Source: Candidatus Poseidoniaceae archaeon (GTDB lineage: Archaea; Thermoplasmatota; Poseidoniia; Poseidoniales; Poseidoniaceae). Taken from it: a stretch of 47,876 nt of DNA. The notes beneath the pieces were generated by a model. That model was given only the letters and a program-made list of their open reading frames with translations. It ran no database searches and was not told where the DNA came from. A program made the position numbers and the translations under genes. The DNA lies in the NCBI GenBank assembly GCA_028822845.1, contig JAPKCS010000012.1, forward strand, positions 1 through 47,876. The letters are read 5' to 3'. Shown piece after piece: positions 1-45,384 of this stretch (positions are counted from its first letter, which is position 1; each line of letters begins with the position of its first letter).

Positions 1-76
1 TAGCGTTGTCTTCTCCACCCGTAGCGTTGTCTTCTCCACCCGTAGCGTTGTCTTCTCCACCCGTAGCGTTGTCTTC
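1..76 (-). repeat. 21-bp tandem repeat encoding DNATGGE units
   Basis: Three identical 21-bp units (1-21, 22-42, 43-63) and a partial fourth (64-76) lie in frame inside the peptidase gene. Each encodes Asp-Asn-Ala-Thr-Gly-Gly-Glu, so each adds one N-x-T glycosylation sequon. The array continues past the window edge, so the copy number is unknown. It probably forms a glycosylated, acidic stalk between the catalytic part and the cell anchor. Perfect identity of the units suggests recent slippage or expansion. Confidence 0.9.
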
Positions 77-3000: not shown

Positions 3001-3985
3001 CATAGCCGCCCAAATACAATCCATCTTCACCGTTCAAATTCTCAAAGGTTGGAGTTCCTTGACTTACAGCAGGTTCGAGTTCAGAGTTTGATTCGTTGAA
3101 AGATTCGCTCAAGAGATACTCACGAACCCCTGCGCCATCAACTGGACTGGATTGGTAATTTGTACACGGGTCCCTAGAGTCGTCCCAGAAATCATTATCA
3201 TCATCATCATCTTCATCGATATCTCGGCAACCATCAGCATCTGCATCGGTCAATTCAGTCGAAGTCCAATTCTTTTCGCCAAGCATACATAAGTCGAGGG
3301 AATCAACAATTCCATCACCATCATCATCAAGATCTTCAGCATCTTCTGAACCCACCAAATACACAAAGAGAGAGACGCCTCCGTTATCAGAATCGTATCC
3401 ATCATCGTAATAATTCTGATCATAGTCGGTAATGTTAATTGAATAATTTCCAGGTTGGCTCCACGAATCAGTGATTGAAAGGTCGCCATAGCTTACACTT
3501 CCCAGCATTCCCGAGATTTGTGAGAGTCGCCCAACCGAGTTCACGTAAAATGGGAAGGTTGATTCCCGTGATTCGTCAATGAAATAACTCCCCCAAAATA
3601 CAGAATCTCCACTTGGTTTTTCCATCGTGATTAATGTTTCATATCGGCAACTTGGATGGCATTCATGGTATACATCGAAGGCTTGACCAGGCAGGATCGA
3701 AAAATTGAATTCCTGATACGTCCAATCTTGAGTATCATAAAGGTCAATCAACACAGAACGGTCTTTACATCCATCGCCATCGTAATCGCTTGTCTCATTT
3801 GAAGTCCAAGAGAGTGTTCCAGTTGGGCAAGCATCATCAACGTCTGCAACTCCATCTGAGTCATCGTCCAAATCCTCTGCGTCAGGAATGCCATCATAAT
3901 CATAATCTGCGTAGGCTTTGGGGATGAAAACCGTTGAAAAAAGGAAAAGCAGAACGAGGAAGAGTGGAAGGATTCGATTGTTCAT
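1..3985 (-). CDS. Secreted M60-like (enhancin-type) zinc metallopeptidase, C-terminus cut by window edge
   Basis: Open from an ATG at 3985 to the window edge (1328 codons, no stop). It begins with a signal peptide ending near AYA, followed by Asp-rich DxDxDG calcium-binding stretches (about residues 24-60 and 215-260). A concanavalin/laminin-G-like beta region follows (about 290-560), then the peptidase region. Peptidase evidence: HEWGH at residues 1046-1050, with Glu1062 in GEGESVVN, matches the M60 HExxH...E zinc site. Upstream, an ANPFGG-like segment is typical of the M60 fold. The visible end is a run of DNATGGE repeats, each carrying an N-glycosylation sequon; related proteins in this window end in a membrane helix, which may lie beyond the edge. 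M60 enzymes typically cleave mucin-like glycoproteins, so a role in degrading extracellular glycoprotein is inferred. A weak TATA-like stretch (about 4005-4018) precedes the start. Confidence 0.75.
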   Translation of the reverse strand, partial: MNNRILPLFLVLLFLFSTVFIPKAYADYDYDGIPDAEDLDDDSDGVADVDDACPTGTLSWTSNETSDYDGDGCKDRSVLIDLYDTQDWTYQEFNFSILPGQAFDVYHECHPSCRYETLITMEKPSGDSVFWGSYFIDESRESTFPFYVNSVGRLSQISGMLGSVSYGDLSITDSWSQPGNYSINITDYDQNYYDDGYDSDNGGVSLFVYLVGSEDAEDLDDDGDGIVDSLDLCMLGEKNWTSTELTDADADGCRDIDEDDDDDNDFWDDSRDPCTNYQSSPVDGAGVREYLLSESFNESNSELEPAVSQGTPTFENLNGEDGLYLGGYDAVDFPNNLTNGLNHSGRIQFSFDFNLNDSYFNNSHLTAGNSSSDYQGKTGDGIRILISNQAAGFGDIGFSLWVKSGVDDEQNYGLSMQITQPGEGNHFLNPMLNRNLSFEKWYTLTITYDFSLEIPTVEILLNSQRYVYSLTPKIDDVECFKAYLVDNPIRIGSDLGGNKFVSYDWNSEGVWGEINSTPSIGMYVRNFSSSSPVPFGSSVDMNDALNALIEHMNGNTTLDATAIDGNLEKVVSNLYVPWSDIGVNAVRYIETYAATQGAIFDAGEIPWTPSTDYPLRYIGFTMQVYVLESVFTPENILASEGIDFPDAKYFPGLVGENAVRVTDGKAMIRGTYQTDPARSFGDDNRLIQPTGFFAPAGEIVTIEVASEHIDGGLVAWVGAHQSDLRVSTDGAYARFPKVGTSFPIDSATTHVANPFGGSIYIMTPNGAQEGDLELTITGAVSSPLFSTRELSQTSYEEWKAAVESNDAPWGDIASDRFMASFPLKYLKYSRDLLCSIDGTPGTYTSRSCIFTVPEGENVTIEPAVGHHDEEVTIKITYPNLTVITYDLNTLYDDSAQGEGEPEPEWHSSGSGVFSKVSNQSGEYRVELISSEGNGGATFYGAVMDYSKVYNPTEMLELWDSAIDSFLVLGGWPLERGDAQQHMWLLPDIQTPAAGTVAPAENPMSMKADVNSFTESGMASRRDISWWADPRVVTEDVFNKGIMTVWHEWGHLHNIPSLLGEGESVVNVPAAIILNTVFNKSLDDSLANATFQGFNRSETAIDWMITSNFRNGERIGEGYKGYTEEGYPLDQVSYQSRGTARYVDMAYLYGWDSVGGTHDVFYQRIVDGSTKLSEVGVTSDSDFTKTSSEVIGVNMAPFFEFWGLEVDQETLDIVNLMPRSEPVQSLLLEYRGILPQNNEQFTEWHTSIEGRIGAWQGPQVASYLVTYDHTTGQAGLDRIDTLLCLYFEVNCENVPGVIPLPAPFEDNATGGEDNATGGEDNATGGEDNA

Positions 3986-4151
3986 TATTCTTGGTTCTTG
4001 CTTCAAGTCATAAAGATATCGAAAATGTAAATTCTTCCCGAAATCCCCGAAGATCTAGATTGATTTATGATAAGAATCCAAAAGTCTGCGAATGATTCTA
4101 GCAAAGTTGCTCCATCAAGAACTCTGTCGAGTTCGTGTTCGAGGAAATCGT

Positions 4152-6464: not shown

Positions 6465-9400
6465 TTAACCCTGGAAAGCAGGGTAGTAATGTTGCGTGTA
6501 GCCAATGGCGTCAGCAGCAGGATAACCTTGGGCTAACAATCCGTTGTAATAATCGCGAGCTGGGTCAGCGACTGGCGCTGGTTGTGCAACTGGCTGGATT
6601 GCTTGGACTGCTGGGGCTGCGTAGGTTGCAACTGCCTGTTGAGCCACTGGTTGGGCTGCGAAGTTTGGCATTGCAACGGCTGCCGGTTGAGCATCCATCG
6701 GAGGCATGCTGGGCATACCACCGGCTGCAGGCTGTGCCCATGCTTTTTGTTCATCATCGGCACTCCGGCCTCGGAGGAAGAAAGCCCCACCAGCGAGCGC
6801 ACCAATCAATATCAAGCCGCCAAAGCCGTACATAGCGACCGAGCCACTGGAAAGCGAATCGCTTGATGTCTCTTTTTCTTGAATCCATCGAGTTGGGTCA
6901 TCGATGTAAGCGTCTGCGCCATCATCGAGGGTCCAATCTGTACTTGGGTTGGAATAGCCATCACCGTCTTTATCGTAGCATCCGATGCGGTCGAGTGTGG
7001 AGTTGCCTCGGCCATTCACGCAAGCATCAGCACCATCAGCAAGCGTCCACTCAGCATCAGGGTCAGAGTAGCCGTCACCATCGGTGTCAGCGCATCCAAG
7101 ACGATCGATGTTTGATGTGTCTCGAACAGTTGGGCAATCGTCAGGTGTGACACCGGTTGGGTTGTCTCCGTAGCCGTCGAGGTCTTCATCGGCCCATTGT
7201 GTTGGTTCAGCAGGGAATGCGTCACCGCCTTGTGTAGGCATCCAATTGATGTCGGGGTCTGAACGAAGGTCACCATCGGAATCGAGGCATCCGTATCGGT
7301 CGAAGGTGGAGGTGCCGGCCACGCTTGGGCATGCATCAGGTTCGAACCCTGTTGTATTGTCACCAAAACCATCGTTATCGGTGTCGAGGTACTGAGTTGC
7401 TTCCTGTGGGAAGGCATCCATCACATCGTACCAGCCATCGCCATCAGCATCGGGGCACCCGATCATTCCGGCTTGCCAAGACGTACCTGACTGGAGTGGA
7501 CAGGCATCTTGTGAAGTAGCATCAGCGTTGAATTCACCAGGCCACATTGTATTGCGGTCTGTCCACGTAACATTGGCCCAGTTGTCACCAAAGCCATCCT
7601 CGTCGAAATCTGACCACTGAGTCGGATCATTGCCAAAGGCGTCAGCTCCATCTTCGGAGGACCAGAAACCATCAGCATCTGAATAACCGTCTTCATCAGC
7701 ATCGAAACAGCCGAGGCGATCAAGGCTTGAGGTTCCTGGTTGATTTGGACAGTCGTCTGGAGTTGTGCCAAGTGTGTTGTCACCATAGCCATCGTTGTCA
7801 GCATCAGCCCACTGTGTGGCGTCAGCATCGAAGGCGTCGTCGATGTCAGCCCAACCATCGCCATCGGCGTCAGGGCAGGCGTTCTTCCCACCAAGGGTTG
7901 AGTCGCCAGCCTCATTCGGACAGTCGTCGAAATCATCGGCCCAACTGTCACTATCGGAATCAAGGCAGCCTTGAGTCCCGTTGAGAGAGGTACCAGAGAC
8001 CGTCGGGCAATCATCGCTAACGTCACTGAAACCATCGGCATCATCATCGGTGTCTTCATCGCTGTCACGGCAACCATCGCTGTCGATGTCAGAACTGGCA
8101 TCGGAGACCCATGTTGGACGAGGTGGGGCGTAGGAGGTCCAAGGACAGTTGTCATCGGCATCGTCAATTTGATCGTTATCGTCATCTGAATCTTCGCCAT
8201 CATCTTTGCATCCATCATTGTCCCAATCTGTTGAAGCAGATGGGTTGGATGTGTCTTGTCCACTCGTCCAATTGAATTCGCCTCCACGAGGGCAGAGGTC
8301 AGGGAAGTTATCGGTGATTCCGTCATTGTCGTCATCGGAATCACAAGCATCACCGCTCGTATCCCCATCCGTGTTGGCTTGAGTTGGGTTCGAAACATTT
8401 GGGCAGTTATCTTGAGAATCAGGAACACCGTCCACGTCTGCATCTTTCTTAGCGCTGGGGTCAAGTGACCACAAGATAGCGTCCCAGTTGGAAGTGGAAG
8501 TGAGTGTTAACCCACTCTTACTCATGGAACCGCCGCCAAGTCCGCCACCGACGGTGACGATATCGGTTTCGTTGATGGCGATGGAATAGAGCACTTCGTA
8601 ATCAGCACCAGAAGTTGTTTCCATCCAGTTCCATATACCGCTTGAAGACAATGCGCCGACCATTCCATCGAAATTGCCACCAACCACGGCAGATTGTTGG
8701 CCACCGGTGAAGGTAGCATCGAGGACTGTGACAACGAACACTTCGTCCATCGAGTTGATGGCGATGTCACGAATGGAGTCGACAGAAGAACTGCCCCCGG
8801 TCGCTGCCCAACTGGTACCAGGAAGGGTCGCGAAGGGGTTTTTGAGCACAAAGGCATCTTGTTGACCTTGAGTGGCTGTAATGGACCATGAACCCGAAGG
8901 ACCACTGCCTTGCAGGGTACCGTCATACAAACCTCCAATGTAGAGATCGTCATTCATACTCATCGCCATGGAAGTCGCTTGAGTGTCTTGATTCGGAGTG
9001 CCGAGTCCGCTCAGTGTTTTCACGGTGCCAGATGAATCAAAATTGATGAAGAAGGCGTCACTGGTTCCGGATGGAATATAGGAGTTGGTCCCGAAAATCA
9101 TGTTGCCAAAGGTGATTCCAGTGATGAAAATATCGCCCATTGAATTTACTTCCACTCCGGATACGATTTGGTTACCTACACCGCCGCCGGATGCCGCCCA
9201 AACGAGGGATCCTGCTATACCGTCAATTTTCGCTACAAAAACTTCTTGATCGCTCACATTGAATGTAATTCCGCCGAAATCAGTCTCCCCTTGATGGACG
9301 CCTGTGACAATGACATCGCCGTTTTGATCAATGGTCACCGATTCGATTTGGCTTGTTTCTTGAGAATTATTTACCACGGTCTGGAAACTATGGGCCCAGA

Positions 9401-9968
9401 GCCATTGACCACTGGTGTCGGCCATAGCGATGAATCCGTCAACGGATGGGGAAGCGATGGTAAACATACCAAATTGAATCGAGCCAGTGTATAATCCAGC
9501 GACGACAATTTCGCCACCCATACCCACTGCGAGATCACCGAACACGGAGACTCCAGGATTGTTAGGAAGGTTATGATCTGCTCCTTGCAGGTTTTGGTAC
9601 TGACCTGAACTGTCCACTGTTCCAATGTAAAATTCCTGTCCAAAAGGACTCGATGGGTTGAGGGTCTGGGTTCCAAAGGTAAGGGTTTGAGCGTTGCTCG
9701 TGTTCCAAGTACCGCCGAAAGCATAGGTACCAAAGGTAAATTCCAAGGCTTCAATGAATTCTGCACCAGATGGCGTACCACCGCCAACCAGCATTGGATT
9801 GGCACTGTTGGCACGTGCTTGAACACGCTCTACGGAGGTCGGTTCAGACAACTCAGAGGGGTTATGTAATTCTGAATCTGAAGCGAGGCTTGCCATCGGT
9901 GCCAAGACCGATAGAAGCATCAAAAGCATGATTGAGGTTGCTGATGTGCGAAGCAATACGGTTGCCAT
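6465..9968 (-). CDS. Giant surface protein: beta-propeller repeats, thrombospondin-3-like Ca repeats, C-terminal anchor
   Basis: About 1167 residues. A signal peptide (to about residue 30) is followed by about 450 residues of SBBP-like beta-propeller repeats (for example GDVIVTGVHQG, GDIFITGITFG, DDLYIGGLYDG). About 550 residues of DxDxDG/CP calcium-binding repeats resembling thrombospondin type 3 follow. One membrane helix (about 1075-1098) precedes a cytoplasmic tail rich in Pro, Ala and Gln that ends in an aromatic segment (YYNGLLAQGYP...YTQHYYPAFQG). I chose the ATG at 9968 over a TTG two codons upstream. The gene follows rpl30e on the same strand, but a 73-bp gap suggests its own promoter. 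A role in adhesion or particle binding is inferred from architecture only. Confidence 0.8.
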   Translation of the reverse strand: MATVLLRTSATSIMLLMLLSVLAPMASLASDSELHNPSELSEPTSVERVQARANSANPMLVGGGTPSGAEFIEALEFTFGTYAFGGTWNTSNAQTLTFGTQTLNPSSPFGQEFYIGTVDSSGQYQNLQGADHNLPNNPGVSVFGDLAVGMGGEIVVAGLYTGSIQFGMFTIASPSVDGFIAMADTSGQWLWAHSFQTVVNNSQETSQIESVTIDQNGDVIVTGVHQGETDFGGITFNVSDQEVFVAKIDGIAGSLVWAASGGGVGNQIVSGVEVNSMGDIFITGITFGNMIFGTNSYIPSGTSDAFFINFDSSGTVKTLSGLGTPNQDTQATSMAMSMNDDLYIGGLYDGTLQGSGPSGSWSITATQGQQDAFVLKNPFATLPGTSWAATGGSSSVDSIRDIAINSMDEVFVVTVLDATFTGGQQSAVVGGNFDGMVGALSSSGIWNWMETTSGADYEVLYSIAINETDIVTVGGGLGGGSMSKSGLTLTSTSNWDAILWSLDPSAKKDADVDGVPDSQDNCPNVSNPTQANTDGDTSGDACDSDDDNDGITDNFPDLCPRGGEFNWTSGQDTSNPSASTDWDNDGCKDDGEDSDDDNDQIDDADDNCPWTSYAPPRPTWVSDASSDIDSDGCRDSDEDTDDDADGFSDVSDDCPTVSGTSLNGTQGCLDSDSDSWADDFDDCPNEAGDSTLGGKNACPDADGDGWADIDDAFDADATQWADADNDGYGDNTLGTTPDDCPNQPGTSSLDRLGCFDADEDGYSDADGFWSSEDGADAFGNDPTQWSDFDEDGFGDNWANVTWTDRNTMWPGEFNADATSQDACPLQSGTSWQAGMIGCPDADGDGWYDVMDAFPQEATQYLDTDNDGFGDNTTGFEPDACPSVAGTSTFDRYGCLDSDGDLRSDPDINWMPTQGGDAFPAEPTQWADEDLDGYGDNPTGVTPDDCPTVRDTSNIDRLGCADTDGDGYSDPDAEWTLADGADACVNGRGNSTLDRIGCYDKDGDGYSNPSTDWTLDDGADAYIDDPTRWIQEKETSSDSLSSGSVAMYGFGGLILIGALAGGAFFLRGRSADDEQKAWAQPAAGGMPSMPPMDAQPAAVAMPNFAAQPVAQQAVATYAAPAVQAIQPVAQPAPVADPARDYYNGLLAQGYPAADAIGYTQHYYPAFQG

Positions 9969-10047
9969 AGACAATGCTTGAGCCTAGAGGACAAGAAGGC
10001 TTCCATCCATTGACCGCGAGCCTTGAACGCCAAAGAGGCGCTTAAGT

Positions 10048-25050: not shown

Positions 25051-25088
25051 GGGCACTTACGATTCGGTTGAATCACCTGGGTGAGGCT

Positions 25089-25907
25089 ATGCTACGCGAG
25101 TCGATTTCTTCTCGAACCGGACTTGTTGCCGGGCTCATCCTTTTGTTGATGATTCCAGGCCTTGTCACGTCCTATCACACGGGCATCGGTGGAGAGCAAA
25201 GCAACGCTGGCGAAACGATTGATGACGTCGCCAAAGAAGGCTGTCTTTGCCACAACGGCGATTCCGATAACTCTGTGCAAGTCATCCTCGATGCAGTCCC
25301 CTATGGATGGGTCGGTGGAGAGACATACACCATGACCCTCCAACTCATCGGCGGCCCTTCGGCCACTGGAACCTACACCGGCGGGTTTGCCATGAGGGTG
25401 TCAACAGGCATCCTTGGCGGAGAAGAAGTCCAGAATTGGGAAGAAGACCCAACGGCCCTGACGCACACTGAAGCCTCATCTGCCTCACCCGAGCGACACT
25501 GGACCATTACCTGGCAGGCACCAGCATCCGGCGAAGGAACGGTCAACTTTTGGATCACCGGCAACTCAGTCAACGGCGATCAACTCCCCGGTGTCGAAGA
25601 CAAGTGGAATCAACTTCTTTTCGCCCTCCAAGAAGGTGATGAAAACACCGATGCTCTTGGCACCCGCACATTGTTTGCCGGTGATGGCAATGTAAGCCCA
25701 CCAGCACCCGAATCCCATGGCGTCGATCTCGAACACATGGGTGCTCAACTCAGAGCGCACTGGCTCGGTCTGCTCGGATTCGGCGCTGTTCTCGCCGTCA
25801 TTGGATTCGCAGGACTTCTGCTCCGATACAGTTTCTCCACATCCTACAAGGGACGCTCCAACCAATTGCGACTCCGATACAAACTCATGCGCCGAGGTGA
25901 CCAGTGA
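25089..25907 (+). CDS. Secreted, membrane-anchored beta-sandwich protein with a CxCH motif (Reeler-like)
   Basis: 272 residues from ATG 25089. A signal or anchor helix at about 11-28 is followed by an outside domain and one C-terminal helix at about 229-252 with a basic tail. Near the start of the domain is EGCLCHNG (Cys52, Cys54, His55). This resembles a heme c motif but has only one residue between the cysteines (CxCH, not CxxCH). The remaining approximately 150 residues are beta-rich and resemble Reeler/DOMON-type domains. It is the first gene of the operon with Rieske and cytochrome b genes, so a role as an outside redox partner or assembly subunit is inferred. Its TGA overlaps the next ATG. 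Confidence 0.65.
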   Translation: MLRESISSRTGLVAGLILLLMIPGLVTSYHTGIGGEQSNAGETIDDVAKEGCLCHNGDSDNSVQVILDAVPYGWVGGETYTMTLQLIGGPSATGTYTGGFAMRVSTGILGGEEVQNWEEDPTALTHTEASSASPERHWTITWQAPASGEGTVNFWITGNSVNGDQLPGVEDKWNQLLFALQEGDENTDALGTRTLFAGDGNVSPPAPESHGVDLEHMGAQLRAHWLGLLGFGAVLAVIGFAGLLLRYSFSTSYKGRSNQLRLRYKLMRRGDQ

Positions 25908-26350
25908 TGGACGATACAATCTCCACCTTGCTCCGTGGTGTCGCCAAGGGAACCATCAGCGTCGCAGATGCACGAAAGGCCTTGGAAGACGCAACCCTCA
26001 CCGAAGAAGAAATGGTTTCTGCCATCGACCACGGTGTCTTCAACCCAGCTGAACCAGGAACGATCGTTAGCGCCTCACTCGCACCGTCTGGAGGCTCATA
26101 CCTCACCATGATGTTCTTCGTATGGGGCATCTTTTGGTCATGCTACTGGGTGTTCTCCCTGATCTATGGGCTCGCCAAAGGCTGGGACCAACAACAATTG
26201 GCCTACCACCTTGGAATTGTCCTCGTCACGCTTTGCATGATGGGCATGGTTTACCTCAAATTCGTCATCCCAGACGCCATCATTGTCAAGCATGCTCAGA
26301 ATAAGTTCATTCCAGAGCATACAAAAGATTGGAAGGAGTACAAGTGGTGA
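25907..26350 (+). CDS. Small two-helix membrane subunit of the respiratory operon
   Basis: 147 residues. The soluble N-terminal half (about 1-60) contains a short helical segment of the type LLRGVAKGTISVADARKAL. Two membrane helices follow (about 68-90 and 101-125), then a charged tail. No family recognised. The ATG overlaps the TGA of the preceding gene by one base, and the Rieske gene starts 6 bases after its stop. Strict linkage suggests a structural or assembly subunit of the Rieske/cytochrome b complex. Confidence 0.65.
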   Translation: MDDTISTLLRGVAKGTISVADARKALEDATLTEEEMVSAIDHGVFNPAEPGTIVSASLAPSGGSYLTMMFFVWGIFWSCYWVFSLIYGLAKGWDQQQLAYHLGIVLVTLCMMGMVYLKFVIPDAIIVKHAQNKFIPEHTKDWKEYKW

Positions 26351-26356
26351 ACCATC

Positions 26357-27202
26357 ATGGCGCGTGACTACAACCTCAAACCTGCACCTGTCGAAGGAGT
26401 CAAAGCCGTTGAGGCTGGTGCATCCTACATCAACCGACGTCAATTCCTCAGGTATGGATTCAACACCGCAACCGGTGTGATGGCAGCCTCGCTTGGCGTG
26501 CTCGGCTTTGCTTCGATCCTCCTACCTCCTGGCGGAAGCACCGCTGGTGAACTCGGCGTGGTCTACTGGGCCAAGGGTCGAGAAGATGAAGCATGGTACG
26601 GAGCCAAGCACGAACAACTGATGACCAAGACTGATTTCGTTGAAGAAGCTGCAAAGTCCAACACTGGCACGGCAGGCGCCGCAGGAATCTGGAACGGCGT
26701 CCCCGTTGTGGTCACCTACGTGAATCACTCAGAAAACAAAGACACACCCGTCTCCGGAGGATTGGCTCGCTTCCAATTCATGGAAGGGGTCGATGAAACA
26801 GGAAAAACCATTGGGCACTTTGAAGATTTGAGTGACACCGACCCTCGGATTTTCCCGTCAGAGAACATTGTCATGATTTTCGCACGCTGCACTCACTTGT
26901 GCTGCATCCCCGGTTGGCAATTGATCTCAAACTCGTTCACTGAAGACTCGTGGTCCCCCGGTGGTGGCGACGATGGTGGCACCAAGTTGTTCTGTATCTG
27001 CCACTCTTCTCGTTTCGATCCAACCGCTCTTGAAATGAACACAAACCGAAACCGTTCCAACGGTTCCACCTTCAAGTACGCAGGTATTCGAAAGGCCGGA
27101 GGACCTGCTCCTGTCGGCCTACCACTGATTCCAATTGAACTCAACGGTGATGTCATCGAAGGCATCACAGACTACATAGATTGGTACACATACTGCGACT
27201 GA
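26357..27202 (+). CDS. Rieske iron-sulfur protein of a bc/b6f-type complex
   Basis: 281 residues. The twin-arginine-like NRRQFLRYG precedes a membrane anchor (about 38-58). The cluster-binding boxes are CTHLCC (Cys178, His180, disulfide Cys183) and CICHSS (Cys213, disulfide Cys215, His216), giving the two Cys and two His ligands of a [2Fe-2S] Rieske centre. The usual Gly of CTHLGC is Cys here, so box 1 has a third cysteine. The longer spacing before the boxes is typical of archaeal Rieske proteins. It takes the first electron from quinol on the outer face. It precedes the cytochrome b gene by 10 bases. Confidence 0.93.
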   Translation: MARDYNLKPAPVEGVKAVEAGASYINRRQFLRYGFNTATGVMAASLGVLGFASILLPPGGSTAGELGVVYWAKGREDEAWYGAKHEQLMTKTDFVEEAAKSNTGTAGAAGIWNGVPVVVTYVNHSENKDTPVSGGLARFQFMEGVDETGKTIGHFEDLSDTDPRIFPSENIVMIFARCTHLCCIPGWQLISNSFTEDSWSPGGGDDGGTKLFCICHSSRFDPTALEMNTNRNRSNGSTFKYAGIRKAGGPAPVGLPLIPIELNGDVIEGITDYIDWYTYCD

Positions 27203-27212
27203 GGTGATTTGA

Positions 27213-28079
27213 ATGACAACAATGTTCTGGATTTTGTGGTTTTTCATCGCTTTCGTCATCGTCTTGGTAGCGTTAACCCTCCGTAAGGAAAACGATGACC
27301 TTCCTCGTCGTGAAATCCTCCGTGCCGTGGAGTCAACCGGCAAAATGGGTTTTGCTGAGCGTTTATTCCTGTGGATCTTCTCATGGCTCGACACACGGTT
27401 CCGCCTCCAAGATTATTGGAACATGTCAAAGGGTGCCTACTACAACATGCACCGACAAATGCCGTTAACGCACGCTGAGAAGTACAAGCTCAGAATCATT
27501 TGGTATTGGTACCCCTTGTATTGCCTCGGTGGCATTTCGTTCCTTTCATTCATTATCCTCGTCGTCACAGGAACCGTCCTGGGCATCTACTACGTGCCCG
27601 GAGGCGAAGGCGATCCGTCCCCCGCTTACGCCAGCATGCAATTCATCATGACCGAATTACCGTTTGGTTACATCATCCGTGCTGTCCATCACTGGGCGAC
27701 GCACTTCATGGTTGCCAGTGTGTTCCTCCATATGTGCCGAGTGTACTTCACGGGTGCTTACCGGAACCCTCGGGAACTCAACTGGCTCATCGGTGTGGCC
27801 CTGATGGCACTCACCATTGTGTTTGGTTACTCTGGTTACCTTCTGCCATGGGACTCTCTAGCGTACGGTGCTGCCGTGATCGGTATCAACCTGGCTAACT
27901 CGAGTCCTCTTGTCGGGAAGTATGTGGCAACCCTGCTGTTCAGTGGTTCTTCATTGACGCCACGAACCGTGACACGAATGTATTTCATTCACGTCTTTAT
28001 TCTCCCTGTGATTGTGACAACGCTGATCATTATTCACTTATTCATTGTCTGGGTGCAGGGCATTGCAGAACCACATTGA
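27213..28079 (+). CDS. Cytochrome b, N-terminal (b6-type) subunit
   Basis: 288 residues. An extra N-terminal helix (1-22) is followed by an amphipathic stretch and four core helices. Heme ligands are in place: His159 and His173 (spacing 14) in helix B, and His260 and His275 (spacing 15) in helix D. The 15-residue spacing is typical of b6f-type and not mitochondrial bc1-type cytochromes, in line with a split cytochrome b. GYLLPWD is also conserved. It carries both b hemes and the quinone sites of the complex. The C-terminal half of cytochrome b is on the next gene. Confidence 0.93.
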   Translation: MTTMFWILWFFIAFVIVLVALTLRKENDDLPRREILRAVESTGKMGFAERLFLWIFSWLDTRFRLQDYWNMSKGAYYNMHRQMPLTHAEKYKLRIIWYWYPLYCLGGISFLSFIILVVTGTVLGIYYVPGGEGDPSPAYASMQFIMTELPFGYIIRAVHHWATHFMVASVFLHMCRVYFTGAYRNPRELNWLIGVALMALTIVFGYSGYLLPWDSLAYGAAVIGINLANSSPLVGKYVATLLFSGSSLTPRTVTRMYFIHVFILPVIVTTLIIIHLFIVWVQGIAEPH

Positions 28080-28097: not shown

Positions 28098-30926
28098 ATG
28101 GGACTTATTGAGAATCTTGGCCGTGTTGCTTCTTCCTATATGGAAGAAAAGGAACAACTCCAAACTGCTGGAGAAACGCGTGAACGAACCCGAACTGGTC
28201 ACGGTTTTTGGCCACAAGAGGTGCTGCGTGATTCGATTATCTTCGCCTTCATGGGAGCAGTCTTGCTGTTCTACGCTTGGCTGATTCCACCACCGCTCCA
28301 CGGTGCTGCTGATCCCTACGCACAAGCTGGGTTCGTGTTCCCTGATTGGTACGTACTGTTCTCATATGGCTACCTCCGATGGGGCGAATACCTGCCACAA
28401 TTCACCGTTCCAACTGGTTTCGTTGGTGAAATCGTCGGCCAACCTGTGTTCCCTTGGAACGCTGCATGGTGGGGCGCTGCACTGACTGGAATTCCAGTGA
28501 GTATTCTTGCCCTCCCTCCATTCTTGGGTGGCAGAGAGAAGCGACCTGTTGAAGACCCGTGGTTTGCCACTGCCGGTGCGGTCTACCTCGCGCATATTTG
28601 GTTTATCTCAGTCTTTTCGATCAATATCTTCCTCGAGTTATATGGGAAGAATCGTTCTGATTATTGTAAGTTGGACAGCCATGGCGATCTGTTATGTGGG
28701 ACGAGATCCCCCTGGCTAGCAGATGCATTCAACTCGATTCCTTGGGTCATGACCGGTGTTTTGGCTTGGATTTGTATTTACTTCATCTCTCGAGCCTTGC
28801 TCGTCAAAGCATTGGGTGCTGGCTTCAAACCAGGACACGCCAAACAAATCCTCATTGGAACCCTCCTCATTTCGACCGCAGGAACCGTTGCCACATGGGA
28901 CACCTATGATGACGGATTCTGGGACCAAGGTGGTCTGTTGACCATCAAGGGATTAACCCACGATTACTACCCTGAACTGGAAGCAATGCGCACTCAACCG
29001 ACGGATGTCCACGTGCACGATGTCAACGAATTCACTGACGACCGAGGATGGAGTGAAGACGGTATTGTCCCGGCCACTGCATGGCTTGACTGGAGCATTT
29101 ACCAACCCTCACGCTACGTCATCACAGATTTCACCGATTCGAACGGGCATCAAAGCGCTCAATTCGGCATCAACGCTGCTGCCGACTCCACCGCCTTCAA
29201 CGGCGGAGAAGGTTGGACCACCGCTGGCGCATTTACCGTCACCGAGGACCTCAACCACTTCCCAGAAGGGCATCATGAAAGCGTCGAGACCCTGACCACT
29301 GATCTTGCTTGTGAGTACCGAGCCTCTGAGCGGAAAATCAACGATATCGGTACAGTGTCCATGCTCTCGAGCACACTCACCGTCACTGACAGCAACGGCA
29401 AGACCATGACCAGTTTCGATAACTGCGTAGGGGACACCATTGAGCTGCCCGTAGGCGAGTACACCTATGCATACACCGTGGAAGTCAGTGGAGCGCTCGC
29501 CTACAATGACAGCATTGTAACCGAAACCTCGTTCGCCATCGCCTCATTCCAACCTTTGCTGGTTTGGACTGAAGATGCACCACCCGCTCTTGCTGGACGA
29601 ACTGTTGACCTAACCAATGAAAGCCAAATGGCAATCGGCGGCACAGCCTATGCAGCGATTGAAAACCCAACCTTCCACACCAACCCAAAGGCCCTCGATG
29701 CAAAACTGACCTACGCCATGTTCATCCCTTGTTTGACCTTTGGTGCCATGGTCTTCGTCCTTCTTCGTTCCATGGCCCGTGGCTATGAGTTTGAGATGAA
29801 CAAGTGCTACGGCTGTGACCTTTGCGATGACGCATGCCCCGTTCGTTTGTTCAACGCAGGTGACAAACTGAACATCATCTACAACTCGTGGAACAATGAA
29901 GACGACGGTGTACCGTTGTATTCTTGCCTGACATGCACGGCGTGTACCAACGCATGCCCTCAACTGGTCAACTACGATTCATACGTCGACATCCGACGCT
30001 CGTTGATCGTTGGTGGACCACAAGCTGAAATCCCTCACACGGTGTTGCAAGCAGTGCTTGCTGCTGAAGCAGAAGAATCTGCAGACGATGATTTCGTGGC
30101 CGTTGAAGATTACCCAATCACATCCAACATCGGTTACTACCCAGGATGTGTTGATTACCTCGACCAAGAAATGGTCTTCTCCCACGTCAATGAAGGTGAG
30201 ATGAACCTCGGTGATTCAACCACAGCAGCGTTCACCCTCTTCGATGAGATGGACGTTGATGTCAACTACCTCGGACGAGATTTCCTCAAGTGCTGTGGCC
30301 ACGACCAGAAGTGGCAAGGTCTTGATGAGGTCTTTGACAAGCTCAAGGCTTACAACCAGAAGAAGATCAAACAATCCGGAATCGACACCCTGGTGTCCTC
30401 CTGTGCAGAATGTTTCCGAACCTTTGCCCGGGATTACGAACTTGAAGGCGTGAAGGTCATGCACACCACTGAATTCTTGACCGAGAACGGCTTCGATATG
30501 AACCTCAAAGCGGAAGAAGAAACAACGGTCACCTACCACGACCCTTGCCGTCTTGGCCGCCAAATGGGAGTTTACGATGAACCTCGAAACTTGATCGCTG
30601 GCGTCGAAGGTGTGGAACTCGTCGAAATGGAACACAGTGGCGAAGACGCCATGTGCTGTGGTGTCTCAAGCATGATGTCATGCAATGAGAACGCTCGTGC
30701 TCTGCGTGTCACACGGATGGAAGAAATCCGTGCCACAGGTGCTGATACCATGTTGACGTCCTGCCCCAAGTGTGTCTCTCACTTTGAATGCCTCAAGTTC
30801 GAAGGCGATGAGCGCTATGCTGACATCGAGATCCTCGACGTTGTCTCCTTCCTTGCTCGCCAAGTCGATGCCAAGAAAGCCAAAGCAGCGGCTTCAGTTC
30901 AGCCTTCAACAACCATTGAAGCTTGA
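28098..30926 (+). CDS. Fusion: cytochrome b C-terminal domain (subunit IV-like) plus HdrD-like Fe-S/CCG protein
   Basis: 942 residues. The N-terminal part has the Qo-site motif as PDWY (82-85, usually PEWY) and about five helices to residue 266. A domain of about 270 residues is predicted outside the cell (267-536), followed by a last helix (537-556) with a positive RSMARGY stop. Two ferredoxin-type [4Fe-4S] motifs follow (Cys570/573/576/580 and Cys610/613/616/620). Two CCG domains come next (CCG at 732-734 and 853-855, each followed by an SCxxC). The second half matches HdrD, GlpC and LutA-type proteins. Topology places the PDWY loop outside and the CCG half in the cytoplasm, as both functions require. 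It probably exchanges electrons between a cytoplasmic couple and quinone or heme b. The substrate is unknown. Confidence 0.88.
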   Translation: MGLIENLGRVASSYMEEKEQLQTAGETRERTRTGHGFWPQEVLRDSIIFAFMGAVLLFYAWLIPPPLHGAADPYAQAGFVFPDWYVLFSYGYLRWGEYLPQFTVPTGFVGEIVGQPVFPWNAAWWGAALTGIPVSILALPPFLGGREKRPVEDPWFATAGAVYLAHIWFISVFSINIFLELYGKNRSDYCKLDSHGDLLCGTRSPWLADAFNSIPWVMTGVLAWICIYFISRALLVKALGAGFKPGHAKQILIGTLLISTAGTVATWDTYDDGFWDQGGLLTIKGLTHDYYPELEAMRTQPTDVHVHDVNEFTDDRGWSEDGIVPATAWLDWSIYQPSRYVITDFTDSNGHQSAQFGINAAADSTAFNGGEGWTTAGAFTVTEDLNHFPEGHHESVETLTTDLACEYRASERKINDIGTVSMLSSTLTVTDSNGKTMTSFDNCVGDTIELPVGEYTYAYTVEVSGALAYNDSIVTETSFAIASFQPLLVWTEDAPPALAGRTVDLTNESQMAIGGTAYAAIENPTFHTNPKALDAKLTYAMFIPCLTFGAMVFVLLRSMARGYEFEMNKCYGCDLCDDACPVRLFNAGDKLNIIYNSWNNEDDGVPLYSCLTCTACTNACPQLVNYDSYVDIRRSLIVGGPQAEIPHTVLQAVLAAEAEESADDDFVAVEDYPITSNIGYYPGCVDYLDQEMVFSHVNEGEMNLGDSTTAAFTLFDEMDVDVNYLGRDFLKCCGHDQKWQGLDEVFDKLKAYNQKKIKQSGIDTLVSSCAECFRTFARDYELEGVKVMHTTEFLTENGFDMNLKAEEETTVTYHDPCRLGRQMGVYDEPRNLIAGVEGVELVEMEHSGEDAMCCGVSSMMSCNENARALRVTRMEEIRATGADTMLTSCPKCVSHFECLKFEGDERYADIEILDVVSFLARQVDAKKAKAAASVQPSTTIEA

Positions 30927-32023: not shown

Positions 32024-35000
32024 TCATTGGTCGTAAACGATCCAGGATTCAGAACTTGCATCGAAGTAGGAGAGGGTTCCATCAGCAGCCTTCGACCAGT
32101 TGACACCGTCTTCTTCCCACTCTTGGGATGTTTCTCCAATCGTTGGAACCGATTTATCTGATGCGTTCATCTGGCTTTCGGTTTGGGAATCAGCGTAATT
32201 GGCTTCGGCAAAGGCCGAGCCCATTTCAGGTTCAGTCTCATTCTGACGGACCACAAGAAGAGCGCCTAATCCGCAGAGAACAAGCAGTGCAATGATGGCG
32301 TAGGCAAGACCTCCTCCACCCTTCTGTTCAACTGCAGCTTCTGAGCGAGTTGCATCAAACGGTGCGTCATCAAAGCGATCGGAAACGCCGTCACCATCGG
32401 AATCAAGCGTTTCGTTGGCATCGAACACGAAGTCATCGACTTCGTCATTCACGCCATCACCATCGGTATCGATTTGGTTGAGGCCACAGCCTTCATCGTC
32501 GATGACAGTTTGATTGGAATCCGTACCTTTGCATAAATCGGCGACGTTGAAAACACCATCTTCATCGTCGTCTTTCTGATGCTCTGAACATCCTTGAAGA
32601 TCGGGACCATGTCCAGCGCCCGTGTCACGGCATTCGTCATATGCATCCTTGATGCCGTCCATGTCCTGATCGGTTTGTGTTTCGGAACATCCTGTTGGAT
32701 CGACCTGTTCACCCTGAGGGGTTGCCGCACAATCGTCAATCGTGTTGTCGATCGTATCATCATCGTCGTCGTACTGTTCTGGCGAACATCCTGATGCATC
32801 CGGAGTGGCATCGAGCGCTGTGTTTGGGCACGCATCGACATCATTGTTGAATGAATCATTGTCGTCATCGCGCTGTGAGTCGGAACAACCAGTTGAATCA
32901 GCTTCTTCGGTCTCTGGAGTCATTGGGCAGAAATCATCTGCATCCATGACGGCGTCCATGTCCGTGTCGCGCTCACTGGCGGCACATCCTTGGCCATTGA
33001 CTGGAACACCTGGGGCGCTCATTGGGCAGTCATCGACGTCGTTGCTAACACCGTCATCGTCGCTGTCCAATTGCTCATCTGAGCATCCTGCAGCATCGAT
33101 GATTGCACCAAGCGTGGTCGAAGGGCAAAGATCGAATGCATCCATTACACCATCGTTATCAGCGTCTTCTTGGGAGCCTGAGCATCCAAACATATCGACT
33201 GATTCGCCGGCTGGAGTTTCAGGACAAGCGTCCTGATCGTTTGCAACACCATCGAGGTCATCGTCCATCTGTGAGGTGCTGCAACCGAATGTGTCAACAA
33301 CTTGGCCAGCAGGGGTACCGAGGCATTGGTCCCCATCGTTGCCCATGGCGTTGTCGCCATAGCCATCGTTGTCTGCATCCATCCACTGTGTTGCATCTGC
33401 TGGGAAGGCATCAGGGGCGTTTCCTGTCGGATTGTCACCGTAACCGTCACCGTCAGCATCCTGCCATTGTGTGCCATCAGTCGGGAAATGATCGGGATCG
33501 TTGCCAGCTTGGTTATCGCCAAAGCCATCCCCATCTTGATCGAACCATTGAGTTGGTTCGTTTGGGAAGAGGTCTGCGTCGTTGCCACCAGCATTGTCAC
33601 CATAGCCATCGCCATCAGCATCGACCCATTGAGTCGAGTCGGTGGGGAAGGCGTCGGGTTGGTTTCCTGCAGGGTTGTCACCATAGCCATCACCATCGGT
33701 GTCGGACCATTGTGAACCATCGTTAGGGAATTGATCACCGTTGGTACCGTTTGGGTTATCGGCGTAACCATCGTCATCGTCGTCAGCCCATTGGGTTGAA
33801 TCAGTTGGGTATTCATCAGCATTGTTTCCAGAGGCGTTGTCTCCATAGCCGTCACCATCAGCATCTGACCATTGCGTCGGGTCGTAAGGGAAGGTATCGG
33901 AATTGTTGCCTTGTGTGTTATCGCCATACCCATCCCCGTCGATGTCTGACCATTGTGATGAATCTGTAGGGAAGGCATCTGGGCTGTTGCCATTGGCATT
34001 GTCTCCATAACCGTCACCATCCATGTCAGAATACTGGCTTGAATCGTATGGGAAGTCGTCGACATCATCGTTGTAACCATCGCTGTCAGAATCTTTTTGA
34101 GAAAGTTCACAACCGTCCATATCGACCATTGAACCAGCGGCCGAGTTCGGACAGAGGTCGAATTCGTTGGCAACACCATCGTTGTCATCATCGATGAAGA
34201 GGTTGAAACAGTCACTGTCGCCAATCAGTTGAACACTGGCTGCAGAGTAAAGCAGAACTTCTGCACAATAGGTTCCAGACATGTTCGGTGTCGAATAAGT
34301 GAAGGTTGGCATGCTCATGTTTTGGGCCGATGCTGTGAAATTCATTATGGTGGATGAAGCAATGTTTGCACCTGCTTGGTCGACAACACGAACTTGGTAT
34401 CGATAGGAATCGCCAGTCACGAGGTCTGAACCCTTGACGTCCACGTTGTTTGTGACTGAGGTGCTGCTTGTTGAGTAGGCATCGATCACCATCGATGGCA
34501 ATTGTGGAATAAAGTCTGAGGCGTGGAAGCCAATGTACCCATCATTTGCGGACAGGTTGATCGGGGTGTTTGCGTAGGAGAGCAAGCCGACCAAAGCATG
34601 GATGTCCCCCGTGGTGATTCCGGTCCAGTTTACGGACCACATTTCCGAAGTGGTTGTGCTGGTGAAGTTCTCGGTTTGTTCGTAGACCACCGAAACTGCA
34701 AGTGCCAACTCCACATCATTGGAAGTAGTATAATTATTTTCAAACTGGACGATATCGTAGACGAACCACCACAAGGTGTAGTCCGTGTTGAGTGAAAGGT
34801 TGGTTGCTGTATGCTCCCCTGTGGTGGAAGAAAGTGCCTCAGATTCGAGTATTTCGAGGTAGGTGCAATCAAAATCCATGTTCAAGAGGTTACCAGAAGC
34901 ATCCATTAGGTCAGATTCTACACAGAAATTTGATTCAATCATGACCGGTGTCGATGTTGTCACAGTCGTCGAATAATTCGAGCCTGTTGCGTTGAAACTA

Positions 35001-36127
35001 ACGGAGGTTGAAGAGCTCACTGCTGAGGTTCCATTATCGAAATATTGCACATCCGAGTAATCATATGTGTAGTTGGTTCCAGCATTGAGTCCATCGATGA
35101 AGATGGTGGCTGTTGAAAGGTTGACTTGGTTCACTTCGATGGATTCGAAGGACTGACCTCCACCCGGGAGATCTGTCGTGATTTCGATGCTGTAGGTGTT
35201 GATGGCGCCGATCCAGCCGTAAACATCGATGTACGTGGTTTGGCTTGATGATGAAGAGACGCTCATGTACTCTGTATTCGTCGAGCCTCCCGAAGAGGAG
35301 AGGTAGTTTCCGTTTGCAGAATCCCAGCCAGCGTCAATGTCACCAGAGGCATGATTGAATGTGATGTTGACATAATATGTCACGCCGCTCAACATGTCGA
35401 CTTGGAAATAATCAACATCTGAGGTGGTGTGAAGGGAGAGACCTGAACAATAGATTGGAAGGTTTGAAGCGAGTGTGGCGGTTGATGTTGCATCATTTGG
35501 CTCGAGGATATCGGAGTTTGTCGTACCGTTACCAACGCAATTGGTTGGTGGCGACGTCCCGTTTCCACCGGTTCCGTTCCCGCCCGTTGAGGTACTGAAG
35601 GTCCAGAAATCAAGCGTGTAGGAACCGTATCCGCTGTATCGCAAGATTTGGACGTACACCGTACCTCCGTGAGGGTTTTGGGTTGCATTGGTTGAAACAA
35701 TCTCCGGATTGTTGTTTAACGAAGAATCGATCCCGTTGAGAGAGGCATCAAAAATGAACAAATCGAAAGCGTTTGAGTAGGTCGACCCGTTTGATGAGTT
35801 GTAAGTGGTGTTGTATGACAATTGGAGCGTGACACCTTCGTTGGCGTCGATGGTGATCGCGAACCAATCTTGGTCATCGCCGACGTCGAGTTCGCCGTAC
35901 TGGGGACCTGACGCAACCGGAGAAAACCCGTTCAGGTTGATGACCGCTGCGGAACTGTTGATCGAAGTGGAATTATCTGGAAGGTCCATGGACGATCCTA
36001 GATCAGATTGGTTTGCGCCGACAGCGGAAGCCATTGGAGCAGTCAAGGTCACCGACATAAGGGCGATAAGAACAGCAAGAAATGTCGCTGTAAATTTCCT
36101 TTGACCAGCGTTGCTTTGCTTGTACAT
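32024..36127 (-). CDS. Giant Ca-binding surface protein with PPC domains and repeat stalk
   Basis: 1367 residues. Signal peptide (1-36, ending ASA), two pre-peptidase C-terminal (PPC)-like beta domains (about 70-170 and 190-310), and Ser/Thr-rich beta domains to about 650. The stalk consists of nine 27-residue DxDGDGYGDN repeats, then about nine Cys-containing repeats of about 36 residues (GCSxxQxDxDxDGV...DxCP). One membrane helix (about 1283-1303) and a short cytoplasmic tail ending in an aromatic WW-like segment (WSKAADGTLSYFDASSESW) complete it. Such stalks stiffen on calcium binding. A role in attachment to particles or polymers is inferred from architecture. Confidence 0.8.
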   Translation of the reverse strand: MYKQSNAGQRKFTATFLAVLIALMSVTLTAPMASAVGANQSDLGSSMDLPDNSTSINSSAAVINLNGFSPVASGPQYGELDVGDDQDWFAITIDANEGVTLQLSYNTTYNSSNGSTYSNAFDLFIFDASLNGIDSSLNNNPEIVSTNATQNPHGGTVYVQILRYSGYGSYTLDFWTFSTSTGGNGTGGNGTSPPTNCVGNGTTNSDILEPNDATSTATLASNLPIYCSGLSLHTTSDVDYFQVDMLSGVTYYVNITFNHASGDIDAGWDSANGNYLSSSGGSTNTEYMSVSSSSSQTTYIDVYGWIGAINTYSIEITTDLPGGGQSFESIEVNQVNLSTATIFIDGLNAGTNYTYDYSDVQYFDNGTSAVSSSTSVSFNATGSNYSTTVTTSTPVMIESNFCVESDLMDASGNLLNMDFDCTYLEILESEALSSTTGEHTATNLSLNTDYTLWWFVYDIVQFENNYTTSNDVELALAVSVVYEQTENFTSTTTSEMWSVNWTGITTGDIHALVGLLSYANTPINLSANDGYIGFHASDFIPQLPSMVIDAYSTSSTSVTNNVDVKGSDLVTGDSYRYQVRVVDQAGANIASSTIMNFTASAQNMSMPTFTYSTPNMSGTYCAEVLLYSAASVQLIGDSDCFNLFIDDDNDGVANEFDLCPNSAAGSMVDMDGCELSQKDSDSDGYNDDVDDFPYDSSQYSDMDGDGYGDNANGNSPDAFPTDSSQWSDIDGDGYGDNTQGNNSDTFPYDPTQWSDADGDGYGDNASGNNADEYPTDSTQWADDDDDGYADNPNGTNGDQFPNDGSQWSDTDGDGYGDNPAGNQPDAFPTDSTQWVDADGDGYGDNAGGNDADLFPNEPTQWFDQDGDGFGDNQAGNDPDHFPTDGTQWQDADGDGYGDNPTGNAPDAFPADATQWMDADNDGYGDNAMGNDGDQCLGTPAGQVVDTFGCSTSQMDDDLDGVANDQDACPETPAGESVDMFGCSGSQEDADNDGVMDAFDLCPSTTLGAIIDAAGCSDEQLDSDDDGVSNDVDDCPMSAPGVPVNGQGCAASERDTDMDAVMDADDFCPMTPETEEADSTGCSDSQRDDDNDSFNNDVDACPNTALDATPDASGCSPEQYDDDDDTIDNTIDDCAATPQGEQVDPTGCSETQTDQDMDGIKDAYDECRDTGAGHGPDLQGCSEHQKDDDEDGVFNVADLCKGTDSNQTVIDDEGCGLNQIDTDGDGVNDEVDDFVFDANETLDSDGDGVSDRFDDAPFDATRSEAAVEQKGGGGLAYAIIALLVLCGLGALLVVRQNETEPEMGSAFAEANYADSQTESQMNASDKSVPTIGETSQEWEEDGVNWSKAADGTLSYFDASSESWIVYDQ
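32430..33330 (-). repeat. About nine Cys-containing thrombospondin-3-like repeats of about 36 residues
   Basis: Second repeat type in the same protein: DxDxDGVxDxxDxCPxTPxGxxVDxxGCSxxQ. Each copy has two cysteines that could form a disulfide between neighbouring Ca-binding loops. Copies are diverged. Confidence 0.7.
33340..34060 (-). repeat. 81-bp tandem repeats (27 residues, about nine copies)
   Basis: In-frame repeats in the surface protein, each with a TQWxDxDGDGYGDN core and a GNxxDxFPxD linker. Copies differ at scattered positions, so the array is diverged and not freshly expanded. Boundaries are approximate. Confidence 0.75.
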
Positions 36128-44754: not shown

Positions 44755-45083
44755 CCACCTCCGAGGACCTGAGGAATCGCAGAGAGGCCGAGGCCTTGCG
44801 TATTCGAAGTTCCCTCAACCGTCAACGCGGAGAACAACACGCTGCGTCCAAAGGCGGTGAAACAGCAGTCGCCTTTGTTGAAGAACGGCTTTGCATCGGT
44901 TGCGATCAATGCACCATTGTTTGCGACGATGAGGCAATCGATCTTTACAAGGTGGCCATGGCCAGCCCGCTCATCAATGTCCAATCGAACAGAAAGGCGC
45001 GCATCATTCGCGACCCATGCACGGGATGTCGACTCTGCGTCCTTGCCTGCCCAACCGATGCCATCACCATGATTGACCGCTAA
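44751..45083 (+). CDS. Ferredoxin with two [4Fe-4S] motifs
   Basis: 110 residues. A basic, polar N-terminal extension (about 40 residues) is followed by CIGCDQCTIVC and CTGCRLCVLACP. Both have the CxxCxxCxxxC spacing, but the first lacks the usual proline after its last cysteine (Asp instead). About 28 residues, including a hydrophobic bit, separate the two motifs, more than in small clostridial ferredoxins. It overlaps the membrane protein gene (ATGA), so it probably passes electrons to or from that protein. Confidence 0.85.
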   Translation: MTTSEDLRNRREAEALRIRSSLNRQRGEQHAASKGGETAVAFVEERLCIGCDQCTIVCDDEAIDLYKVAMASPLINVQSNRKARIIRDPCTGCRLCVLACPTDAITMIDR

Positions 45084-45096
45084 GGAGGATACACCA

Positions 45097-45384
45097 ATGT
45101 CAAAGAAAGGAAAAGAAGAAACTGCGCAACGTTTCGGTGGAGAGTTTGGACCTTACCGCAAGGAAGGAACGCCTGGCGTGACCCTTTCGACGTTCAAGAC
45201 CTTGGTCTGGATTTCGAACATTGGTGGAATGCTCTTGGTCGTCGTGGCCTTAGAAATGTTATTCGTTCAACAAATGTTTGGATGGGGTCTTGTTTGTTTG
45301 ATCCTTGGTGTTGGAATCGCCTTATTCCCATCCAACTATGAGATTGTTGGCATGGAAGAACCAAACGGCCCACCAGAACCTTAG
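45097..45384 (+). CDS. Small two-helix membrane protein
   Basis: 95 residues from ATG 45097, preceded by a clear AAGGAGG at 45083-45089. A charged N-terminus (about 30 residues, SKKGKEETAQRFGGEFGPYRKEG) is followed by two helices (about 41-60 and 65-82) and an acidic tail. No family recognised. Last gene of the asnB cluster. Confidence 0.6.
   Translation: MSKKGKEETAQRFGGEFGPYRKEGTPGVTLSTFKTLVWISNIGGMLLVVVALEMLFVQQMFGWGLVCLILGVGIALFPSNYEIVGMEEPNGPPEP

Follow-up and report, generated by a model that had tools for sequence, protein, structure and literature searches.

A cytochrome b C-terminal half fused to an HdrC-HdrB-like iron-sulfur module in Marine Group II archaea, and its possible ferredoxin partner

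A single open reading frame, in which half of a Rieske-type cytochrome b is continued by an Hdr-like iron-sulfur protein, raises the question of whether the join is genuine and, if so, with what its cytoplasmic half exchanges electrons. The frame (gene 5) lies on contig JAPKCS010000012.1 of Candidatus Poseidoniaceae archaeon (assembly GCA_028822845.1; 1.92 Mb, 57 contigs), of which a stretch of 47,876 nucleotides, here called the window, was analyzed. Three families of the class were compared: f3, which is Marine Group III (MGIII), and f1 and f2, presumably Poseidoniales of Marine Group II (MGII). The original prediction, made from the window alone, had proposed a thiol or hydroxyacid reaction of HdrD type. 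The reading favoured here, to which a probability of about 0.5 is given, is that of a b6-type Rieske/cytochrome b complex into which a ferredoxin/flavodoxin:menaquinone module is built, and whose dedicated partner would be an RnfB-like ferredoxin (gene 6).

All 942 codons of gene 5 are open, and the parts announced by the original prediction, namely a cytochrome b half with the PDWY motif, an outside domain, a later helix, two Fer4 motifs and two CCG domains, were found in it in this order. PDWY lies at residue 82, the Fer4 motifs at 570-580 and 610-620, and the CCG motifs at 732 and 853. The CCG domains are recognized by Pfam in two stretches (1.3e-22), together with Fer4_9/Fer4_8. The Cytochrom_B_C profile does not match gene 5 itself at E<=0.01; it matches the aligned relatives L105 (same record as L147; 7.8e-10), nzgw66 (1.4e-4) and L129 (6.5e-5), and the Qo motif PDWY is unchanged across 25 alignment rows. 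The earlier helix count holds for four clear helices of the C-half (46-64, 126-144, 161-179 and 221-239, by hydropathy) and for the late one (537-555), but its fifth helix (~245-266) falls under the hydropathy cut-off and is modelled as helical by AlphaFold with low confidence. Among the aligned loci, the outside domain is confined to MGII; its pLDDT is mostly <50, and no fold is discernible.

These features support the placement of the iron-sulfur half on the cytoplasmic side, as previously argued. The conserved C-terminal tail of eight-helix cytochrome b is cytoplasmic, unfused relatives end at this same tail, and helix parity agrees. Relatives without the outside domain run from helix H directly into Fer4, and the insert therefore crosses the membrane either twice or never; residues 537-555 are strongly hydrophobic, and so consistent with a crossing.

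The join is genuine. The original prediction had called for a check of the assembly, and the cytochrome b C-half, both Fer4 motifs and the CCG domains were found in a single open frame in 42/42 MGII loci (L005-L046, the window's included), one of them from a single-contig genome (G002). This set consists of 30 f1 loci, taken as best matches, and 12 f2 loci, picked by hand, neither being a random sample. Two further MGII loci, read afterwards because the hit lists showed them broken, bring the fused frame to 42/44 loci in two families; the frame is interrupted near the second Fer4 motif in G073 and within the outside domain in G026, a pattern suggestive of sporadic single errors or of decay. 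Since the breaks sit at different places, the fusion as such is no assembly accident, and an assembly error was rejected as its origin. In other MGII genomes the locus is interrupted by contig ends. At a threshold of 1e-10 gene 5 is matched in 289 of the 292 class genomes drawn, a count in which weaker hits on the other CCG protein are included. The four pattern matches obtained on viral contigs are all unrelated. A contig titled Chloroflexi bacterium (L140, NZTZ01000011.1) bears the MGIII operon, probably by a binning error.

The arrangement of the two halves elsewhere was followed in 30 loci of named genomes, which can be ordered into five stages. The C-half stands alone in a haloarchaeon (L152, Halospeciosus) and in five euryarchaeal metagenome-assembled genomes (MAGs; L148, L150, L154, L155, L157), all sharing the terminal tail L[NS]..Y.[RK].R. 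In a groundwater MAG (L129) it is extended by two Fer4 motifs and followed by a small membrane gene. In MGIII the C-half and Fer4 share one frame and CCG forms a separate adjacent gene (17/17 loci), an arrangement found also in L149 (CSMAG_355). The full fusion without the outside domain is found in L128 (nzgw66) and L147 (CSMAG_327), and with the outside domain in MGII. In the alignment, the fusion point is the native C-terminus of cytochrome b: fused forms continue as YEFKLNRCYQC and similar, and the Fer4 motif begins at the position of the unfused tail. Separate halves in related genomes, which the original prediction had coupled to an assembly or sequencing error, do exist, as the CCG gene of MGIII demonstrates, but the split arrangement is an earlier evolutionary stage and not an error. 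From unfused to Fer4-fused, then with CCG added and finally fused throughout, the series shows the way in which a cytoplasmic wire is acquired by a cytochrome b.

A tree of the CCG part with 16 rows unites fused and split forms in one group (88/95), separate from three cytosolic HdrC-HdrB rows and from the type represented by the window genome's other CCG protein (L002), in which a membrane part precedes Fer4 and CCG. The tree was weighed lightly, its long branches being flagged; for L074, L076, L077, L078 and L056 no row could be extracted by pattern. The membrane part of L002 resembles NarI-type cytochrome b, as judged by eye.

The operon in which the original prediction had sited the fusion, of Rieske/b6 type, is present: genes 1-4 lie upstream on the same strand (Table 1). 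Gene 4 is a cytochrome b6, whose best solved relatives are the cytochromes b6 of b6f complexes (5.9e-44). Its histidines 159/173 and 260/275 show the b6 spacings of 14 and 15, and Cys104 aligns with b6 Cys35, the heme-ci position; we take the four histidines to be heme-b ligands and the cysteine to serve heme ci. This cysteine was found in 37/37 MGII b6 proteins (of 40 loci, 3 gave no reading) and in 5/5 other Fer4-fused loci, and in 0/6 unfused ones, including L152, which has alanine; among the forms sampled it is thus limited to fused ones. In gene 3 the Rieske motif is read in the translation, and no Pfam Rieske match was obtained at 0.01. No cytochrome f or c1 is apparent in the operon (no genome-wide search for one was made), nor is a gene for a flavoprotein, a hydroxyacid enzyme or a thiol enzyme. 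In the relatives L073 (10086-11948) and L105 (788-3613), which are not MGII, cytochrome b6 is preceded by exported Ig-like (Big_5) domains, and in L106 (1420-4644) by an extension judged by eye to be of Big_5 type.

Gene 1, with its CxCH motif, recurs at the same position in MGII and MGIII loci, and is a possible acceptor of electrons on the Rieske side; the motif may mark a reduced heme-c site, or one for a different metal, through which they are taken up. The variants GCLCH, GCTCH, GCSCH, GCNCH and GCYCH account for the 9/20 loci in which the pattern read it. A different large protein, with a canonical CGGCH, is encoded nearby in the unfused operon L148 (4891-6660). Gene 2 relatives at the same position match PF24002 at 2.3e-12 and 4.3e-12; DUF7318 is known as a haloarchaeal family. 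Elsewhere in the window, three very large proteins (2-4006, 6465-9974 and 32024-36127) have leader-like N-termini and acidic repeats of the D.D.DG. type.

Table 1. Features of the fusion gene and of the linked genes in the window; residues are those of gene 5.
Feature	Positions	Strand	Basis
Gene 5: cytochrome b C-half/HdrC-HdrB-like fusion, 942 aa	28098..30926	+	ORF and Pfam
Cytochrome b C-half (helices E, F, G, H; PDWY Qo loop), residues 38-240	28209..28817	+	alignment, hydropathy, models
Outside domain, residues ~290-530	28965..29687	+	missing from nzgw66, CSMAG and MGIII relatives in alignment
Late transmembrane helix, residues 537-555	29706..29762	+	hydropathy 1.99
Two [4Fe-4S] motifs (HdrC-like), residues 570-620	29805..29957	+	Pfam and motif reading
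Two CCG domains (HdrB-like), residues 684-892, full 5+5 cysteines	30147..30773	+	PF02754, cysteine audit, Foldseek
Gene 1: exported membrane-anchored 'choice-of-anchor V' protein with CxCH motif (GCLCHN)	25068..25907	+	NCBIfam NF041895 8.7e-24
Gene 2: DUF7318-like membrane protein	25904..26350	+	PF24002 0.00039, below cut-off
Gene 3: Rieske protein (CTHLCC ... CICHSSRFD)	26357..27202	+	motif in translation; TIGR01416 6.2e-9, below curated cut-off
Gene 4: cytochrome b6	27213..28079	+	PF00033 1.2e-41
Gene 6: RnfB-like 2[4Fe-4S] ferredoxin, 110 aa	44751..45083	+	TIGR01944 3.7e-12, below cut-off; neighbourhood
Gene 7: small two-helix membrane protein (..NYEIV..)	45073..45384	+	overlaps gene 6

The pair formed by gene 6 and gene 7 is the partner overlooked by the original prediction. 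The best NCBIfam match of gene 6 is RnfB, at 46.2 bits and thus below the model cut-off of 68.7. It lies within 1.5 kb of the 3' end of the fusion in 33/42 MGII loci: in f2 downstream on the same strand (12/12), in f1 convergent and adjacent (21/30). Outside MGII, a four-cluster form starts at the base right after the fusion stop codon in nzgw66, a two-cluster form follows HdrB directly in L149, and a polyferredoxin gene follows HdrB directly in MGIII. In the 18 MGIII loci scanned, the N-terminal part of the latter is of zinc ferredoxin type in 7 and of flavodoxin type in 7, the other 4 not reaching the gene; two of the flavodoxin-type loci, L137 and L153, are contigs of one MAG. Profile matches were obtained for one protein of each type (NF041165, 3.8e-21, CG-Bathy1; PF00258, 2e-26, L134). 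That ferredoxin and flavodoxin replace each other in one slot is to be expected of a low-potential one-electron carrier. The zinc-ferredoxin-type part occurs in MGIII both stand-alone and fused; it gave no match at 1e-5 in the MGII genomes G000, G002, G004, G012, G016, G042 and G034.

According to Tully et al. (PMC6336850, in excerpt), many MGII families have RnfB without RnfACDEG, as well as a non-canonical 'MGII specific complex III'; the orphan RnfB is probably gene 6. Gene 7 resembles, by eye, the small membrane genes of MGIII, nzgw66, L129 and L149. In two unfused operons (L148, 4376-4849; L154, 5714-6313) a protein similar to gene 7, again by eye, is fused to the glutaredoxin-like DUF836 (1e-14 and 4.1e-10), which would give this membrane protein a thiol link elsewhere.

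The favoured reading, a complex III combined with a ferredoxin:quinone oxidoreductase in a single machine, builds on features observed directly: the domain order, the operon, its conservation, the ferredoxin linkage, the heme-ci cysteine and the stepwise fusion series. From these we infer the direction of the electrons, the occupancy of the clusters, their contact with the hemes and the identity of quinone and acceptor, as follows. Oxidation of 2-oxoacids would reduce ferredoxin or flavodoxin, from which single electrons would pass to gene 6, through the CCG and Fer4 clusters and on to the n-side of cytochrome b (heme ci/bH, Qi site), where menaquinone would be reduced; menaquinol would be oxidised by the Rieske protein at the Qo site (PDWY), its electrons going onward to an oxidase. 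A source of reduced ferredoxin is present: POR_N-domain proteins (2-oxoacid:ferredoxin oxidoreductase) were found in 13/14 genomes, including 7/7 of MGII, and zinc ferredoxin is described as the acceptor of this enzyme (PMC2946596, in excerpt).

Several observations weigh against this reading. In the window gene 6 lies 14 kb downstream of the fusion, and it is missing from the flanks of 8/42 loci, namely those of the window and its nearest relatives; the contig of a further locus, L018, stops short of the gene. In G422 and G423 (CSMAG_327 and CSMAG_707) the slot holds an HdrA/MvhD-like gene instead; the G423 copy matches PF02662 at 1.4e-17 and HdrA2 at 1.9e-37, below cut-off. No CCG gene was seen in L129, on an available stretch that stops at the contig end. 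The heme-ci position is occupied by serine in 14/18 MGIII loci; therefore heme ci is not obligatory, and its role as an obligatory port is weakened. NuoF is missing in 6/7 MGII and 4/4 MGIII genomes, with NuoD present in 13/14 (6/7 MGII), although the NADH dehydrogenases are called canonical in PMC6336850 (in excerpt). A complex I without NuoF may already oxidise ferredoxin; complex I is named as a candidate for this in haloarchaea (PMC8305020, in excerpt). Both structure models are weak, with mean pLDDT of 56.1 (whole protein) and 59.8 (cytochrome b/Fer4 part). Finally, the full HdrB-type cysteine set of MGII exceeds the needs of a plain wire.

This last point bears on the alternative of a thiol/disulfide enzyme, regarded as unlikely, in which the CCG pair would break or make a disulfide in the cytoplasm and, like HdrDE, exchange electrons with the quinone pool via cytochrome b. 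The first CCG domain is complete, with 5+5 HdrB-type cysteines in the pair, in all 42 MGII loci, in L128 (nzgw66) and in L147 (CSMAG_327), and the set includes the bridging cysteines tied to catalysis in Hdr (PMC13083937, in excerpt). The same excerpt assigns a linear 3Fe-4S cluster to a four-cysteine first motif, and an extra cysteine with a noncubane 4Fe-4S cluster to Hdr. L002 has just the four-cysteine motif, of EtfD type, and this contrast within one genome looks selected. In MGIII, despite an otherwise similar operon, one cysteine of the first domain is gone in 18/18 loci (CSG in 15, CAEG in 3), as it is in L149 (CSMAG_355; CAEG), while the second domain has all its cysteines in 63/63 loci. 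The contrast suggests that MGIII resembles a wire, and that MGII could still perform disulfide chemistry. The conserved neighbour is a ferredoxin (flavodoxin-fused in part of MGIII), and the operon shows no thiol enzyme and no flavin hydroxyacid enzyme; together with the cysteine lost in MGIII, this leaves the thiol or hydroxyacid reaction of HdrD type without support as the main reading. The membrane partner, moreover, is Rieske/b6, not an HdrE-type cytochrome b or HdrA, and the curated HdrB model TIGR03288 is not passed (19 bits, cut-off 345). To our knowledge, CoM and CoB are not expected in aerobic heterotrophs.

Electrons might also run the other way: menaquinol would be split at Qo, one electron going to Rieske and oxygen, while the other, instead of reaching the Qi quinone, would leave via heme bH/ci, Fer4 and CCG for a ferredoxin or disulfide in the cytoplasm, in a quinone-based bifurcation. 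This is held to be improbable. The parts needed (Rieske, Qo motif, two b hemes, iron-sulfur wire and ferredoxin) are all linked, and in CSMAG_327 the fusion is followed by an HdrA/MvhD-like protein, related to components of flavin bifurcation and truncated where the contig stops; in G423 (CSMAG_707) such a protein comes after the CCG piece. Such a flow would however be uphill against the membrane potential, for ferredoxin by ~0.3-0.4 V by our own estimate, and direction is not readable from sequence. No HdrA/MvhD-like match was found at 1e-5 in 7/7 MGII genomes, and HdrA-based bifurcation was rejected for MGII. A wider proposal covers both directions: the Qi side of the b6-type cytochrome b would exchange electrons with ferredoxin/flavodoxin (in MGII perhaps a disulfide) through the covalent iron-sulfur wire, and the complex could serve as a ferredoxin:quinone oxidoreductase and, when under load, also carry out quinone-based bifurcation; this proposal is put forward tentatively.

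A module of succinate or hydroxyacid type (TfrB, GlpC, LldE-like) is very improbable: TfrB is the best NCBIfam match of the CCG half (1.2e-31), but at 110 bits against a cut-off of 385, it is also the top model for L002 and so marks the domain pair only, and no flavoprotein gene was seen in the operon. Slightest of all is the case for an ETF:menaquinone oxidoreductase, fed by acyl-CoA oxidation through ETF: ETF genes occur in 14/14 genomes, and EtfD is the closest solved relative, the sole one found by sequence and the top fold match when the confidently modelled part was compared by Foldseek (EtfD 1.4e-13, LutA 6.0e-10, HdrB 6.1e-8), but ETF was rejected as main partner, as the L002 type, present as a separate protein in the same genome and adjoining EtfBA in MGIII (G001, G005, G013, G036), occupies that role, and no listed ETF match lies beside the fusion in the 14 genomes. 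In MGII itself, ETF and L002 do not share a contig (genome G000).

The component families are known; their assembly is a novel form of complex III. Among the literature matches listed, no paper describes a cytochrome b/HdrD-like layout, in keeping with the original prediction. In the respiratory-complex section of a survey of archaeal fusions (PMC11237513), Hdr, complex I and complex IV fusions appear and a cytochrome b/Hdr fusion does not; a figure legend of the same paper names Qcr among the fusion events. The reoxidation of reduced ferredoxin in aerobic archaea is called unknown for thermoacidophiles (PMC2946596) and haloarchaea (PMC8305020), both in excerpt, and the MGII complex may be the missing route by which ferredoxin electrons are burnt with oxygen; if it does oxidise ferredoxin, that question can be put to a direct test. 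The 'MGII specific complex III' and the orphan RnfB of PMC6336850 would then belong to one machine, and a complex III wired to the cytoplasm would be the respiratory equivalent of the cyclic flow that ferredoxin drives through heme ci.

Known systems share parts of this design. With the Rnf complex it has in common gene 6, whose best match is subunit B, but that match is below the curated cut-off and RnfACDEG are reported absent from MGII (PMC6336850, in excerpt). EtfD/EMO/FadF likewise combine a membrane domain with a Fer4 pair and a CCG pair, proposed as a wire feeding menaquinone (PMC13083937, in excerpt); gene 5 differs in its cytochrome b family, in having no ETF neighbour and in the five-cysteine first CCG motif of MGII. 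HdrDE/HdrBC have the same Fer4 pair and two CCG domains, with an HdrB fold match and, in MGII, the 5+5 cysteines, but the membrane partner in gene 5 is a Rieske-type cytochrome b half rather than HdrE, and the neighbour is a ferredoxin. Haloarchaeal petABD, reviewed as b6f-like (PMC8305020, in excerpt), has a C-half with the same C-terminal tail (L152), without the iron-sulfur extension and with alanine at the heme-ci position. Cytochrome b6f itself shares the split cytochrome b, the b6-type histidine spacing, the cysteine at the heme-ci position and the Rieske protein; the MGII operon, in which no cytochrome f is visible, departs from it in a C-half that bears a fourth helix and an HdrC-HdrB module, with a ferredoxin gene attached.

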